The translations under genes were made by a program, and so were the position numbers. A DNA stretch of 35,052 nucleotides from an uncultured Acetobacteraceae bacterium (GTDB taxonomy: Bacteria; Pseudomonadota; Alphaproteobacteria; Acetobacterales; Acetobacteraceae). Location: positions 1-35,052 of the forward strand of contig CAIYDT010000081.1 of the NCBI GenBank assembly GCA_903924985.1, in the 5' to 3' direction. The first letter of the stretch is position 1. Each line of letters opens with the position of its first letter. The notes below the pieces were generated by a model. The model was not told the DNA's origin, did no database searches, and saw only the letters and a list, made by a program, of their open reading frames with translations. Of the stretch, positions 193 to 23,910 are shown piece by piece.

Positions 193-323
193 GGGCGAGT
201 CGGCAACGGGGCGAACCCGGGTCATTTTGCGGGGGAGCTTTGCAGCAATCAATTCAAGCATTTTCAATAGCTTGGTATCGCTGCGAAAATCTTGACGGGG
301 TTTATCCCGACGCCCTTTCGTTC

Positions 324-417
324 ATCAAAGGATAGCTTTTGCAAGTGGTGACAGCGATTTTCCGCTAATGTCGATACGCCTGACGCGATGTTAGTGTCTA
401 TCAAAGGATAGGTTTTG
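324..417 (+). repeat. Pair of 18-bp direct repeats, 76 bp apart
   Basis: The motif ATCAAAGGATAGSTTTTG occurs at 324-341 and 400-417 and differs only at S (C, then G). In the second copy CTATC-AAAG-GATAG is a perfect dyad, and TCAAA/TTTTGA flank its core as in crossover sites of small serine recombinases. Such a recombinase starts at 1069. A resolution or inversion subsite is possible but unproven. I see no gene in the rest of 193-446. Confidence 0.45.
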
Positions 418-446
418 AAACAACAATGCACCGCCTAATCCCAGCT

Positions 447-899
447 TCAGGGGGGTGGGGGTGGGTGGATAACGGTCGGAGTGTTGCCAGGAACGATACG
501 TTGATATATCGGTTCGAAATAGAATTGAACGTAGCAGAATTTTGTCCCTTTTTTGGCTGTATCCTGACCAACTCCTGTAACTGTCAATTGGATCATCAAG
601 CTATCGGCTGGAAAGTCATATGACTGTGCCTTTGCCGCTATAAATAACACCCCTTGCGTTGAATCAATGATGTTATCTGGCGAGGCAGACACCTGATAGA
701 ATGAGCAAGTCTCCGCTGTCGTGTCGACAGATTTTATTCCAAGTCTTATCCTGGTCGTTGGGATTAGAAAAACGGCTCCTTCACCGACTAATAACTCCAA
801 GCGTTTATAGCCATCGGCATAAACGGAATGCGATGAGATAGCACTGATACCTAATCCGGTGATTACGACCTTCCGTAGGAACTTGGCCACGGGACTCAT
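447..899 (-). CDS. Hypothetical exported protein, 150 aa
   Basis: I do not recognise this family. The chosen ATG at 899 (MSPVAKFLRKVV) has an AGAAGG ribosome site 9 nt upstream. An in-frame ATG at 908 directly abuts that site, and one at 1046 lies far upstream. The N-terminus looks like a Sec signal peptide: a KFLRK basic stretch, a short hydrophobic core, and probable cleavage after SVYA. The mature part is about 120 residues, mixed polar/hydrophobic and probably beta-rich. It has a few cysteines and ends in five prolines encoded by a G-rich tract (450-465). A sigma70-like promoter precedes it. It diverges from the recombinase gene and belongs to the low-GC accessory block, so horizontal acquisition is likely. 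A pilus- or adhesin-type secreted protein is conceivable but not shown. Confidence 0.6.
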   Translation of the reverse strand: MSPVAKFLRKVVITGLGISAISSHSVYADGYKRLELLVGEGAVFLIPTTRIRLGIKSVDTTAETCSFYQVSASPDNIIDSTQGVLFIAAKAQSYDFPADSLMIQLTVTGVGQDTAKKGTKFCYVQFYFEPIYQRIVPGNTPTVIHPPPPP

Positions 900-938
900 C
901 TCTATCATCCTTCTCAATGAGGCTGTTGGGAAGGTAAC

Positions 939-967
939 AGCATAAGCACATTTTTTTGCGTAAGCAA
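939..967 (-). promoter_or_regulatory. Sigma70-like promoter for the exported protein gene
   Basis: On the minus strand, TTGCTT (967-962) and TATGCT (944-939) are separated by exactly 17 nt. They sit about 40 nt upstream of the chosen ATG at 899. The AT-rich spacer contrasts with the chromosome. The call rests on sequence pattern alone. Confidence 0.45.
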
Positions 968-1068
968 GTCGTGTGAGATGTCCTGCAAAGGGTAAGAAGT
1001 GACAGGGAAAATCGTCCCTATGAAAACAATGGGTTGCGCTTCGCACGAGTTAGTCGCATGATGACCCC

Positions 1069-1623
1069 ATGAAATACGGCTACGCTCGAGTCTCGACCGA
1101 AGACCAGAATCCGGCCATGCAGCTTGCCGCCCTGAAGAAGGCGGGCTGCAAGATCGTGTTGAAGGACCAGGTAACCGGCGCAGACGTCAACCGCCCTGTC
1201 CTCACCCGTTGCTTGAAGAAGCTGGAGACCGGCGACACGCCCATTGTGTGGAACCTCGACCGGCTTGGCCGTAGTCTTCGCGACTTCATCACCATGCCGG
1301 ACGACTTCGGGAGCAAGGACATCCGGTTCAAGTCCCTCACCGAGGCAATCGATACCGAGACCCCGGCAGGCCGCGCGATGTGGCAGATGATTGGCGTGCT
1401 GGCCGAACTGGAACGGTCATTGATTACCGAGCGCACCCGTGCCGGAGTGAAGGCCACGCAGAAGCGTGGAGTGAAATTCGGACGCAAGGTGAATTGGACG
1501 CCCGGCCGGCTTGTCCATGCGCGGAATCTGATTGACCAAGGTTCCGCACCTACACAAGTCACGAAAATGATCGGCGTGAGCCGCGCGACCGTTTACCCTA
1601 CGTTGCAGCGCGAGAGGGACTGA
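1069..1623 (+). CDS. Serine recombinase, resolvase/invertase family (small type)
   Basis: This 184-aa site-specific recombinase has the standard two-part layout. The N-terminal catalytic domain (about 1-135) carries YARVST, with the nucleophilic Ser9. It also has the DRLGRSLRD arginine motif and an ELERSLITERTRAG segment that leads into the long E helix. A C-terminal helix-turn-helix (about 145-184) ends in GVSRATVYPTLQ, as in Tn3 resolvases and Gin/Hin/Pin invertases. Length and active-site residues look complete, so it should be functional. The next gene starts 5 nt after its stop, which suggests cotranscription. Recombinases of this class act in cis on short dyad sites; the repeats at 324-417 are the nearest candidates. 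It is the only recombinase within the 51-bp direct repeats. Confidence 0.93.
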   Translation: MKYGYARVSTEDQNPAMQLAALKKAGCKIVLKDQVTGADVNRPVLTRCLKKLETGDTPIVWNLDRLGRSLRDFITMPDDFGSKDIRFKSLTEAIDTETPAGRAMWQMIGVLAELERSLITERTRAGVKATQKRGVKFGRKVNWTPGRLVHARNLIDQGSAPTQVTKMIGVSRATVYPTLQRERD

Positions 1624-19965: not shown

Positions 19966-20673
19966 ATGTCGGATACGAAACACATCCTGGTCGTGGAGGA
20001 CGAGGCGATCCAGCGCACCATGCTGGTCGAGTACCTGACACGACAGGGCTTCCAGACTACCGGCCTGCCCGACGGCGCCGCTCTGCGCCGAGTACTGCAA
20101 CGCAACGAGCCGGATCTGGTGCTGCTGGACCTCGGCCTGCCGGGGGAGGATGGGCACAGCCTCGCCCGTTGGCTTAGGGAAAATCACGCCAAAGTCGCGG
20201 TGATCATGGTGACGGCCGCCGGCTCGACGGTCGACCGTATCATCGGGCTGGAAACCGGCGCCGATGACTACATCCCCAAACCCTTCGAACCGCGGGAGCT
20301 GCTGGCCCGCATCAAAAGCGTATTGCGGCGTGCCGTGCCGGCAGCGGCGCAAGTGACAGGCGCTCGCGTGCCGATGGGACGGCGGGTGCTGGACCTGGAG
20401 CACCGCGTGCTGCTGGACGTGGATGGGGTCGAGGAACGCCTGACCGCCAGCGAGTTCGAACTCCTGCGCCTGTTCGCCGAAAACCCGAACAAGCCACTCA
20501 ATCGCGAATGGCTGCTGGAAGCGACCAGCCACCGGGAAGCCGAGGCCTTCGACCGCGCCATCGACCTGCGGATCACCCGGCTGCGCAAGAAGATCGAGGC
20601 CGATCCGGCGCATCCGGACACGATCCGCACGGTGCGCGGCGTGGGGTATGTGTTCGTTCCCCCCGAGTGGTAA
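19966..20673 (+). CDS. OmpR/PhoB-type response regulator, 235 aa
   Basis: The receiver domain (about 5-118) shows the acidic pair E11-D12, phosphoacceptor D55 (LVLLDLGLP), T84 and K105 (YIPKPFEP). A winged-helix domain follows (about 140-235) with LTASEFELLRLFAENPNKPL and the recognition helix ending RAIDLRITRLRKKIE, then TIRTVRGVGYVF. No histidine kinase is adjacent; the hybrid kinase at 25147 is the only kinase in the window, and its own Hpt domain could serve such a regulator. The ATG at 19966 follows a GGAGG at a rather long distance (14 nt). Target genes are unknown. Confidence 0.93.
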   Translation: MSDTKHILVVEDEAIQRTMLVEYLTRQGFQTTGLPDGAALRRVLQRNEPDLVLLDLGLPGEDGHSLARWLRENHAKVAVIMVTAAGSTVDRIIGLETGADDYIPKPFEPRELLARIKSVLRRAVPAAAQVTGARVPMGRRVLDLEHRVLLDVDGVEERLTASEFELLRLFAENPNKPLNREWLLEATSHREAEAFDRAIDLRITRLRKKIEADPAHPDTIRTVRGVGYVFVPPEW

Positions 20674-20713
20674 AACAGCTATAGGGGCGTCCACAAACTG
20701 CGAGGATGTCCCC

Positions 20714-21697
20714 ATGTCAGGCACCAATTCGTTCAAGTTCGTTATGCTGCCGCCGCAGTCCGACACCACGCGCGCCTGGGGCAAACGCCTCGCGGAATCC
20801 GTGCCGGAAGCCCGCGTGGTGGTGGCGGAAGATGCCGAGACGGCGCGGCGGGAGATCGTGGATGCCGAGGGCGCGTTCGGCTGGTTGAACCCCGAGCTGC
20901 TGGGTGCCGCCAAGAAGCTGCGCTGGTTGCAGGCGCCGCAGGCCGCCCCCGCTGCCGGGTATTACTTCCCGGAGCTGATTGTTCATCCATTGGAGGTGAC
21001 CAACTTCCGCGAAATCTTCAACGACCACATCAGCGCCCATATCATGGCGTTCGTGCTGGCCTTTGCACGCGGCTTGCATGTGTTCATCCCGCAGCAGCTG
21101 CGGCGGGAGTGGAAGAAGTCCGGCCAGGAAGCGGGCGACGTCGTGCATCTGCCCGAAGCCACCGCGCTGATCGTCGGGGTCGGCGGCATCGGGGCTGAGA
21201 CCGCGCGCCTGCTCGCCGCGTTCGGGGTGACGGTGCTGGCCACCGACGCCCGTCGCACTTCGGCGCCGGAGGGCGTGGCCGAACTGCACAAGCCGGAGGC
21301 GCTGGACGAACTGCTGCCGCGCGCCGACTTCGTCATCCTGACCGTGCCGCATACCCCGGCGACCGAGGGGTTCTTCAACACCGCCCGCTTCGCCCGTATG
21401 AAGAAGACCGCTTTCTTCATCAACATCGGCCGCGGCATGACCACCAGGCTGGACGATCTCGTGGGCGCCCTGAACGCAGGCACCATCGCCGGGGCCGCGC
21501 TGGACGTGTACGAGATCGAACCCCTGCCGGCGGATCACCCGCTCTGGACCATGCCGAACGTGCTGCTGACCCCGCACATGGCGGGTCACGGTCCCTATCT
21601 GAACGACCGCCGCTACCAAATCATGGAGGATAACTGCCGGTCCTTCGCCGCCGGCCGTGAACTGCGGAATCTCGTCAACAAGGCGACGTGGTTCTGA
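20714..21697 (+). CDS. D-isomer-specific 2-hydroxyacid dehydrogenase (first of two)
   Basis: This NAD(P)-dependent reductase or dehydrogenase of 2-keto/2-hydroxy acids has a Rossmann motif VGVGGIGAETARLL in the middle. The catalytic Arg lies in NIGRGMTTRLDDL, the Glu in DVYEIEPLPADHPLW, and the His in LTPHMAGHG. At 327 aa it is in the family range. The N-terminal catalytic domain shows LRWLQAPQAAP in place of the usual LK-x-I-x-x-x-G-x-G. The ATG at 20714 lies just after GAGGA. Its TGA overlaps the ATG of the second dehydrogenase, so they are coupled. The substrate is unknown. Confidence 0.9.
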   Translation: MSGTNSFKFVMLPPQSDTTRAWGKRLAESVPEARVVVAEDAETARREIVDAEGAFGWLNPELLGAAKKLRWLQAPQAAPAAGYYFPELIVHPLEVTNFREIFNDHISAHIMAFVLAFARGLHVFIPQQLRREWKKSGQEAGDVVHLPEATALIVGVGGIGAETARLLAAFGVTVLATDARRTSAPEGVAELHKPEALDELLPRADFVILTVPHTPATEGFFNTARFARMKKTAFFINIGRGMTTRLDDLVGALNAGTIAGAALDVYEIEPLPADHPLWTMPNVLLTPHMAGHGPYLNDRRYQIMEDNCRSFAAGRELRNLVNKATWF

Positions 21698-22683
21698 TGA
21701 TAGACACGCTCGTCGTTACCTTCCCGCAGGACGCCAAGGGCCGCCCTTACATCGCGGACGCCCTGCAAGGCACGGCAGATGTCGTCTATCTGGCCGACCT
21801 TGACGACGATCAGGCGCGGGCGGCTGCGCTGCGAAACGCCACCGTGCTGCTGGCCCGCAACACGGCGAAGGAGCTGCGGCCGCACGAGCCGGCGCTGATC
21901 GAAAACGCCAGGCTGATCCAGTTCATTAACGCTGGCGTCGATTTCGTGCCCTTGAAGGTCTTCAACCCTGCAATCCCTATCGCCTCCAACGGCGGCGCCT
22001 ATGCCGAACCGATGGCAGAGCATGCGTTGGCGATGGTGCTGGCGGCGGCGAAACGGCTGTTGGTCGAGCACGAGGCCCTGAGGCGCGGCGAATTCAACCA
22101 AGGCAAGCGCAACCGGTCTTTGGCTGGCGGGGTTTGCGGCATCCTCGGATTCGGCGGCATCGGCCTCGCCACCGCGCGGCTGATGCAGGCGCTGGGGATG
22201 AAGATCCATGCCATCAACCGGCGCGGCGCCTCGGACGAACCCGTCGATTGGATCGGCGCGCCGGCGGACCTGGATACGATGCTGGCGGTCGCGGATGTTC
22301 TGGTGATCTGCACCCCGCTGACGCCCGCGACGCTGGGCTGGATCGGCGCGCGGGAGCTTGGCCTGATGAAGCCGGACGCCATCCTGGTGAACCTGGCGCG
22401 CGGGGAGATCGTGGAGGAGGCGGCGTTATTCGCCCACCTGCAAGCCCACCCAAAGTTCTATGGCTGCATCGATGCCTGGTGGATCGAGCCGGTACGGCAC
22501 GGGTCGTTCCGGATGGATTACCCGTTTCTGACGTTGCCGAACGTGATCGGTTCCCCGCATAATTCGGCATCCGTGCCCGGGACAGGGGAAACCGGACTGC
22601 GGCGGGCAGTGGCGAATATCCGCCGAGCACTGGCTGGGGAGACGCCGCTGTATCTGGTTGGGCCGGACGAGCGGATGATGTGA
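21697..22683 (+). CDS. D-isomer-specific 2-hydroxyacid dehydrogenase (second of two)
   Basis: The Rossmann motif is ILGFGGIGLATARLMQ. ICTPLTPATLGWIG leads to the catalytic Arg in VNLARGEIVEEAAL, an acid in CIDAWWIEP, and the His in GSPHNSASVPG. The ATG at 21697 overlaps the TGA of the first dehydrogenase; the upstream GTG would put the start inside that gene. At 328 aa it is complete and clearly diverged from its neighbour, so this is not a recent tandem copy. It lies 21 nt before the selenoprotein-like gene and is probably in the same operon. Two different 2-hydroxyacid dehydrogenases plus a GrdB/PrdB-family reductase suggest catabolism of one small organic acid or amine. Confidence 0.9.
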   Translation: MIDTLVVTFPQDAKGRPYIADALQGTADVVYLADLDDDQARAAALRNATVLLARNTAKELRPHEPALIENARLIQFINAGVDFVPLKVFNPAIPIASNGGAYAEPMAEHALAMVLAAAKRLLVEHEALRRGEFNQGKRNRSLAGGVCGILGFGGIGLATARLMQALGMKIHAINRRGASDEPVDWIGAPADLDTMLAVADVLVICTPLTPATLGWIGARELGLMKPDAILVNLARGEIVEEAALFAHLQAHPKFYGCIDAWWIEPVRHGSFRMDYPFLTLPNVIGSPHNSASVPGTGETGLRRAVANIRRALAGETPLYLVGPDERMM

Positions 22684-22704
22684 CGATAATGGGAGAAACA
22701 CTGA

Positions 22705-23910
22705 ATGGCACGCCTTGAGGATATACCCGAACCAACACGAACGGCGGTGGCAAGCATCCCTTGCCCCGCCTTCGAGACGACCCCTTTCGTGGCCGGCCCG
22801 CCGCTGTCCAAACGCCGGGTCGCGATCGTCAGCAGCGCGGCGCTGATCCAGCGCGGCGACAAGCCGTTCCCCTTCGGCTCCGGCGAATGCCGCCCGTTGC
22901 AGCGTAGCTGGGACCCCAACGATATCCTGATCAGCCACGTGTCGATCAACTTCGACCGCGCCGGCTACCAGCGCGACATCAACGTGGTCTACCCGATCGA
23001 TCGCCTGAAGCATCTGGCGATCGACGGCCTGATCGGCAGCGTCGCGAACACCCACTACACTGTCATGGGTTCCACCGACCCAGCCGAGATGGCCGCGTCC
23101 GCCGACTTCATCGCCGCCGCCTTCAAGGCCGACCACGTCGACGCCGTCGTCCTCGCCCCCGTTTGACCGCTGTGCACCCGCGCCGTGAGCGCGATGGCAC
23201 ATATGCTGGAAGAACGGGGCCTGCCGACAACGGTTTTGGCGCTGGTGCTGCCCCAGGTCGAGAAGACCCGCCCGCCCCGCGCCCTGATGACCCCCTTCAT
23301 GCTCGGACGCCCGCTGGGTGAGCCTGGGGATTCCGACTTCCAGCGCCGCGTGCTGCTGCAAGCGTTGCGGTTGCTGGAGCGAACGGACGGGCCGGTCATC
23401 CTGGAGCATTTCCCGGACGATAACCCGAGTCATTTCGACCGGCCGGATTGGGTGCCATCGGTGACGGTGCCGCCGCCGGGCGTGTATGACGACGCGGACG
23501 CCTGGGAATCCGCCTTCCGCGACGAACTCGAACTGATCTTACCGGCCTGGGAACGATTCGAGGCTCGGTTTGGCCGCTCCACGGTCGGGCTGTCCGGTCA
23601 GTCCTTGCAGGATTGGCCGGATTTCGCAACGTCCTTCCTGAACGGCGCTTTGCCGACAGTGCCGCTGCATGACACCCCGGCTTTGGCATTGCGCTTCCTG
23701 TGCGATGACATCAAGGCAATGTACGGGGAGGCCGCGCAGGCCGACGGACCCGCATCCTCCGCCGGGCAGATCGACCGGTGGTTCTGGCGGGAGACGGTCG
23801 CAGGGCAACTGCTGATCGCGCTTCGGAGCAAGGCAATGGAGAGCGAGAACAACGCTCTGAAAACGGTGGGCGGGCGGTTCTTCGTGCCGGTGCCGTATTT
23901 GCCGGGGTGA
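22705..23910 (+). CDS. GrdB/PrdB-family selenoprotein, in-frame UGA at codon 154
   Basis: The gene starts MARLEDIPEP with GGGAGA 8 nt upstream and runs for 402 codons if the TGA at 23164-23166 is read through. The N-terminal half has family text: RRVAIVSSAALIQRGDKPF, ISHVSINFDRAGYQRDINVV, YPIDRLKHLA, GLIGSVANTHYTVMG, and VDAVVLAPV just before the TGA. The next codons give PLCTRAVSAMAHMLEERGLP, aligning with the U-x-x-C-T-R segment where glycine/betaine/D-proline reductases carry selenocysteine. The result is U154-x-x-C157. A hairpin at 23171-23201 fits a bacterial SECIS. The downstream half (to SLQDWPDFATSF and VGGRFFVPVPYLPG) stays in frame for 248 codons and has no ribosome site of its own. 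An ordinary nonsense mutation or sequencing error of a Cys codon (TGC) is the alternative. Confidence 0.8.
23171..23201 (+). promoter_or_regulatory. Candidate bacterial SECIS hairpin
   Basis: TGTGC (23171-23175) pairs with GCACA (23197-23201). After a symmetric 3/3 internal loop, CGCGC (23179-23183) pairs with GCGCG (23189-23193), leaving the pentaloop CGTGA. The apical loop begins 17 nt after the UGA and has a G in its first two positions. These match published constraints for bacterial SECIS elements, which bind SelB. Confidence 0.65.

Follow-up and report, generated by a model that had tools for sequence, protein, structure and literature searches.

The locus considered here poses a two-part question: whether a long PrdB-like gene, which standard ORF finding cuts into two ORFs, is read as one gene through a selenocysteine (Sec) codon and, if so, what kind of protein it would encode. 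In the window, by which we mean the whole stretch of 35,052 nucleotides that was analysed, the ORF listing gives 22705-23166 (153 aa) and 23185-23910 (241 aa); the two lie in one frame, and between the ATG at 22705 and the final TGA at 23908-23910 the sole stop is the TGA at 23164-23166, codon 154 of 401, in the context VDAVVLAPV-U-PLCTR. The initial annotation had described this single break and the want of a ribosome site for the second ORF, and the window sequence confirms both: no purine-rich stretch is visible on inspection ahead of the GTG at 23185, and a GGGAG precedes the ATG (Table 1). It had also placed the TGA at the U-x-x-C position of glycine, betaine and D-proline reductase B subunits, and the codon indeed coincides with the Sec/Cys column of six PrdB-type genes aligned to it.

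Table 1. Positions in the window of the split gene, its parts and its upstream neighbours, with the basis of each assignment.
Feature	Coordinates	Strand	Basis
D-2-hydroxyacid dehydrogenase, neighbour, probably outside the system	20648..21697	+	family matches; synteny local
Second D-2-hydroxyacid dehydrogenase, neighbour, probably outside the system	21688..22683	+	family matches; synteny local
GGGAG, likely ribosome-binding site; its end lies 9 bases ahead of ATG 22705	22691..22695	+	sequence; inference
Putative Sec-containing PrdB-like gene, 401 aa plus stop, one UGA read through	22705..23910	+	frame, family matches, TGA long form in 46 distinct genes
PrdB-like domain, residues 33-227	22801..23385	+	NCBIfam TIGR04483, E 3.3e-26, below cut-off
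UGA codon 154, taken as selenocysteine	23164..23166	+	homologue comparison; Cys codon in 4 genomes, 0 with selA
SECIS-like element; loop CGUGA 23184-23188, with the conserved GU, closed by core stem 23179-23183/23189-23193	23167..23213	+	synonymous conservation, folds
TGC, Cys157, partner residue of the U-x-x-C motif	23173..23175	+	invariant in alignments A1, A3 and A6
C-terminal all-helical domain (predicted), residues 241-401	23425..23907	+	model mean pLDDT 92; no relative found in PDB or Pfam

One reading of this arrangement is that the TGA is a real stop, produced by a nonsense mutation, a sequencing error or the decay of a pseudogene, or that the halves are two proteins, and the two ORFs listed by mechanical ORF finding speak for it. 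Against it, the TGA is kept in the long form of 46 distinct genes whose identity falls to about 39%, and the half downstream of the TGA is conserved across all relatives compared. The TGA stands at the identical codon in 13/13 relatives from genome contigs (those found among 29 genome-contig stretches matching a pattern; one lacks its first 76 codons), and among the genomes of the window's family that hold a long form spanning codon 154 it was found in 23/24 (the window plus 22), with TGC in the remaining one. A Haematobacter relative has TGC at the Sec/Cys column. Plasmid records supplied six PrdB-type genes, four of them annotated as prdB and two lying in unannotated stretches; at the same column five hold TGA and the sixth TGT. 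Every homologue inspected carries TGA, TGC or TGT at this column, which is the alternation between U and C that the initial annotation had singled out for comparison. Codon 154 was inspected in all 23 family genomes with TGA, in the three class genomes without a stop and in 19 of the 30 class genomes with TGA (the window, 17 fetched loci, and L034, which was equated with G509), the rest being a count of stops. Two family genomes whose C-terminal pieces do not include codon 154 (G051 and G144, both with selA) are excluded from the counts, as is G318, whose short copy contains a TAG; in G167 the long gene is spread across two contigs, in G281 there is an extra TAG inside the gene, and in G620 a frame break splits it. 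Copies 75-76% identical to that of the window also occur on two contigs titled Kuenenia (L034) and Nitrosovibrio (L035), the latter copy grouping with Acetobacteraceae copies in the tree; the bins or titles of these contigs may be wrong.

As decoding machinery, the initial annotation had pointed to selA, selB, selC and selD as the genes to be sought; all are present in the window's genome (5.59 Mb in 285 contigs, completeness 98.7, contamination 7.5), on contigs other than that of the PrdB-like gene. A tRNA-Sec scores 73 bits, and ARAGORN, run on this match, calls it as well; two further matches, at 48.7 and 47.2 bits, barely reach the gathering score. The single selA match (560 bits) is the ORF upstream of the 73-bit tRNA-Sec on the same strand. 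Besides the one selA there are two selB matches (G000 C222 and C110) and two selD matches (C213 and C91) above cut-offs, a doubling that may reflect paralogues or the 7.5% contamination.

The association extends well beyond one genome. Among 249 family genomes searched with alignment A1, 51 of which gave any match, selA occurs in 75 (74 above cut-off, that of G229 being a fragment under it), that is, in 23/23 genomes with the TGA form versus 52/226 others (p 7e-14); among 385 genomes of the class, 50 with any match, the long form carries TGA in 30 genomes and no stop in three (TGC, TGT, TGT), and selA is found in 29/30 of the former versus 27/355 others (p 6e-27), both p values being optimistic because related genomes are not independent and the window's genome sits in both samples. 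None of the four genomes with a Cys long form, one from the family and three from the class, has selA. Copies may have been missed, since the candidates scored per genome were few: seven in the family search, four in the class searches and two in the FdhN search. The sole class genome with a TGA long form and no selA match is G509, whose stated completeness is 100%; the coordinates of its gene coincide with those of the gene on L034 (a contig 5,967 bases long), so the gene may be misbinned, or selA may be absent from the assembly.

A further line of evidence lies in the bases that follow the UGA. Across codons 155-170, codon identity at same-residue pairs among 12 close relatives is 839/913 (0.919) versus 9776/18441 (0.530) elsewhere, which ranks first of 369 windows along the gene, and among the 46 TGA genes it is 0.695 versus 0.480 (rank 2 of 369), while in four Cys genes the figures are 25/56 and 463/1037, both 0.446 (rank 162). 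When the 50 bases from the UGA are folded, 34/36 sequences place an invariant GU in an apical loop of 3-5 bases, with a UGA-to-loop spacing of 17-18 bases; the GTG that would start the second ORF falls inside this very loop. RNAalifold finds almost no covariation, keeping five pairs, two of which show one compensatory change apiece and one of these (columns 15-31) is unformed in the window, and the window hairpin alone has a z of -1.9; the structure therefore rests mainly on sequence conservation. A bacterial SECIS, as the available text of PMC1088965 describes it, is a hairpin straight after the UGA with a G in a small apical loop, and that is what is found here, with covariation too weak to serve as sole proof.

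The conserved TGA and downstream half, the strong link with selA, and a GTG start that sits in a hairpin loop with no visible ribosome site led us to reject the premature-stop and two-protein readings, which we regard as highly improbable. Of the findings that the initial annotation named as fatal to its reading, neither a genome devoid of sel genes nor an unrelated residue at the column was encountered. The claim that this is a selenoprotein is upheld by the sel genes, the codons found at the column and the SECIS-like hairpin; UGA 154 is almost certainly decoded as selenocysteine, by SelB and Sec-tRNA under the downstream hairpin, as far as sequence comparison can tell.

If one protein is made, to which family does it belong? 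The best named match is PrdB (TIGR04483, E 3.3e-26), and this is what favours the view that the gene codes for a genuine PrdB subunit of D-proline reductase, or for GrdB, and was acquired from fermenters. The match, however, reaches 92.2 bits against an equivalog cut-off of 300; the glycine reductase protein B models are likewise not reached (TIGR01917, 41.8 of 602.2 bits; TIGR01918, 49.7 of 65.45); and identity to the six PrdB-type proteins is 29-32% for five and 26% for the sixth. PF07355 (GRDB) is passed, at 33.2 versus 22 bits, with a match that ends just ahead of the Sec codon and involves the last fifth of the model alone, and the same family matches 34/34 members of alignment A6 at E <= 1. 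The part of the initial annotation that asserted homology to GrdB/PrdB therefore stands, whereas assignment as a PrdB or GrdB equivalog does not. In a tree of 73 sequences, 50 long forms lie on one side of a branch supported at 100/99, apart from PrdB and the short paralogues, a separation to be read with the midpoint root, one long Cys branch and the program's warning about long branches that converge between the groups. Four Cys long forms are nested within the long group (87/84), which fits a change from Sec to Cys. No protein of PF09338, the GrdE/PrdA relatives, was found in the window's genome, a search in which 2/2 control records match; TIGR04480 (PrdA) gave no match either, with a control that was also silent and a draft genome that may miss PrdA.

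The long form also carries something that PrdB does not. Its C-terminal 161 residues, modelled alone, are predicted to be all-helical, and this model retrieved no PDB chain at E <= 0.001, nor did the domain match a Pfam family; the full-length AlphaFold model, for which 13 sequences were used, was of low quality (mean pLDDT 57) and likewise retrieved nothing from the PDB at E <= 0.001. A profile search against solved structures returned five weak rows, the best of which (E 1e-6), a designed protein, has no stretch that passes alone. The 45 viral-contig stretches that matched a pattern held no relative, and no PHROGs family was found for the protein. The low score, the separate group, the absence of a PF09338 protein and the added domain led us to reject the true-PrdB reading, which has very little to recommend it. 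On sequence evidence, the long PrdB-like gene does not encode a D-proline reductase or glycine reductase of known kind, because it belongs to a group of its own and scores well short of the PrdB cut-off, and because no relative of PrdA/GrdE turned up in the genome.

Shorter relatives of about 300 aa share the same core and Sec/Cys column under the motif U-P-V-C-H-Q; they are devoid of the C-terminal domain and fall on other branches of the tree. The window's genome has two of them. One is its second UGA PrdB-like gene (C75; L151 5119-6369, minus strand), followed by an ORF that, as read from the sequence, resembles a CaiB-like CoA-transferase; the other is a third PrdB-like paralogue (C114; L152 9160-9795, plus strand) whose Sec column holds TGC. 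In the class, selA accompanies short TGA copies in 20/22 genomes (the exceptions being G559 and G259) and occurs in 0/8 genomes with stop-free copies only; sixteen short copies were inspected, seven of them within those 22 genomes. A further subfamily, seen in L163 and L166, reads U-P-L-D-H-Q or C-P-L-D-H-Q, the second motif Cys being absent.

Genomic context says little about a substrate. The initial annotation had drawn a reaction from the two 2-hydroxyacid dehydrogenases beside the gene, and this argument proves weak, as such a cluster lies near the gene in 7/34 loci (two of these, L025 and L068, are apparently a single contig) and in 8/51 of a wider set; no protein-coding neighbour is constant across the 34 and 51 loci, and clustering in search of a substrate gave no steady partner. 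Genes of selenium metabolism do recur: SelA, SelB or an NDH-SelD fusion lies <= 9 kb away in 10/51 loci (names confirmed on L150), nine of these ten lying beyond the window's family, with some flanks cut short at contig ends. Similarly, selA is within 10 kb of the gene in 10/30 class genomes with TGA, and a tRNA-SeC was found in 10/17 class TGA loci fetched, in 0/3 Cys loci, and in L073, which was scanned for its sel genes. In L135 the tRNA-Sec (267-362, plus strand) lies 74 bases past the 3' end of the PrdB-like gene (437-1615, minus strand), on the opposite strand. Proximity of this kind would be explained if the protein handled selenium, delivering or recycling it to SelD, and the adjoining tRNA-Sec of L135 and the ten sel-adjacent loci are compatible with such a role; yet the TGA long form is absent from 27/56 class genomes that bear selA, and Cys forms occur in genomes without it, making selenium handling an unlikely function.

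The want of a constant substrate-specific neighbour also agrees with a different function, that of an antioxidant Sec thiol-disulfide or peroxide reductase whose U-x-x-C would cycle with thiols and cleave no C-X bond; U-x-x-C is found in thioredoxin-like selenoproteins too, according to the available text of PMC2398784 and PMC13188914. The Pfam matches of the present protein, however, include no thioredoxin family, and the PrdB/GrdB core around the motif is retained. In known members this core serves substrate reduction. We consider a thiol or peroxide reductase doubtful on balance, albeit a possibility of some weight.

The best explanation, which we hold with good confidence, is a single 401-residue Sec protein that constitutes a PrdB/GrdB-type reductase of its own group. 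Its redox pair would be Sec154-Pro-Leu-Cys157, set in the PrdB/GrdB-type core and accompanied by the added helical C-terminal domain. The selenolate would attack either a small electrophile or a substrate linked to a thiol; upon departure of the product, Cys157 would resolve the selenium intermediate to give an Se-S bond, which a thioredoxin or glutathione system could then reduce. Selenolate attack followed by resolution through Cys157, a scheme drawn from what is known of the family, is the likeliest mechanism and seems to us slightly more probable than not. As no PrdA/GrdE pyruvoyl relative was found in the genome, the substrate would have to be activated otherwise or carry its own leaving group, and a Schiff-base route to the reduction of glycine, betaine or D-proline is improbable; since the C-terminal domain has no PDB or Pfam match and PF09338 is missing, the reaction is deduced solely from the U-x-x-C pair and the family.

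These observations also bear on why Alphaproteobacteria retain selenocysteine. Three kinds of UGA gene were counted in the 56 class genomes with selA, namely long PrdB-like, short PrdB-like and formate dehydrogenase-N (FdhN): a TGA long PrdB-like gene occurs in 29, a long or short one in 35 and a Sec FdhN in 14, and 30/56 have a UGA PrdB-like gene but no Sec FdhN. The window's genome itself has no FdhN above cut-off, with an in-frame TGA in 0/10 weak matches. None of the three kinds was found in 12/56 (G255, G304, G312, G351, G360, G431, G456, G473, G524, G545, G601 and G622), which may hold other selenoproteins. The UGA PrdB-like gene is thus commoner than Sec FdhN among the selA genomes sampled, and often near sel genes. 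Tentatively, and with slightly less than even confidence, we suggest that the long PrdB-like protein rather than formate dehydrogenase is the main reason that many Alphaproteobacteria keep selenocysteine, and that it represents a new class in which the C-terminal domain replaces the pyruvoyl partner. In any event, the long gene offers a clear and testable target for the role of selenium in these bacteria.

How much of this is new? The initial annotation had presented such proteins as novel outside Stickland fermenters, and this does not survive comparison with the literature: the Sec "PrdB" family is not new, because reports of 2005 and 2008 had already counted it in marine metagenomes, with 42 Sec "PrdB" genes reported from the Sargasso Sea (PMC1088965) and 235, plus 110 Cys homologues, from GOS (PMC2398784), and a Sec "proline reductase" is recorded in Anaeromyxobacter and a Geobacter (PMC1794560), each according to the portions of these sources available. 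For Alphaproteobacteria, the available part of the 2006 survey gives FdhA as the sole selenoprotein of those that decode Sec (PMC1794560), and deep-Sep, in the part of the 2025 report available, lists three known selenoprotein genes in Afipia (PMC12013277); the accessible text of PMC8124441 describes ORF1 and ORF2 adjoining selB-selC in Alphaproteobacteria, of which one might be the PrdB-like gene. The literature searched, outside which most subscription journals lie and parts of which were available only in extract, yielded no recognised description of an alphaproteobacterial long PrdB/GrdB-like group. Apparently undescribed, then, are the long group, its link with sel clusters and its excess over Sec FdhN in our sample.

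Set beside known systems, the long group is closest to PrdB (TIGR04483), with which it shares a core of about 195 residues and U-x-x-C at the same column, TGA being present there in 5/6 genes checked; PrdB, however, has about 240 aa and U-GTCHR, whereas the long group has 401 aa, U-PLCTR and no PrdA/PF09338 relative found. The GrdB-type B subunits of glycine, sarcosine and betaine reductases resemble it through PF07355, above cut-off and ending before the Sec codon, and differ in that only the last fifth of that model is matched, TIGR01918 stays at 49.7/65.45 bits and no GrdE relative was found. The Sargasso and GOS Sec "PrdB" proteins, mostly marine and compared by description alone, share Sec, U-x-x-C and, per the tables available, PF07355 (PMC1088965, PMC2398784). 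Finally, the fluoroacetate reductase FarB of Synergistota, likewise set beside the long group by description from the available text of PMC10838667, belongs to an anaerobe and has a GrdE-like partner and a radical SAM protein, but it too is a GrdB-like Sec protein for which the reduction of something other than an amino acid has been proposed.
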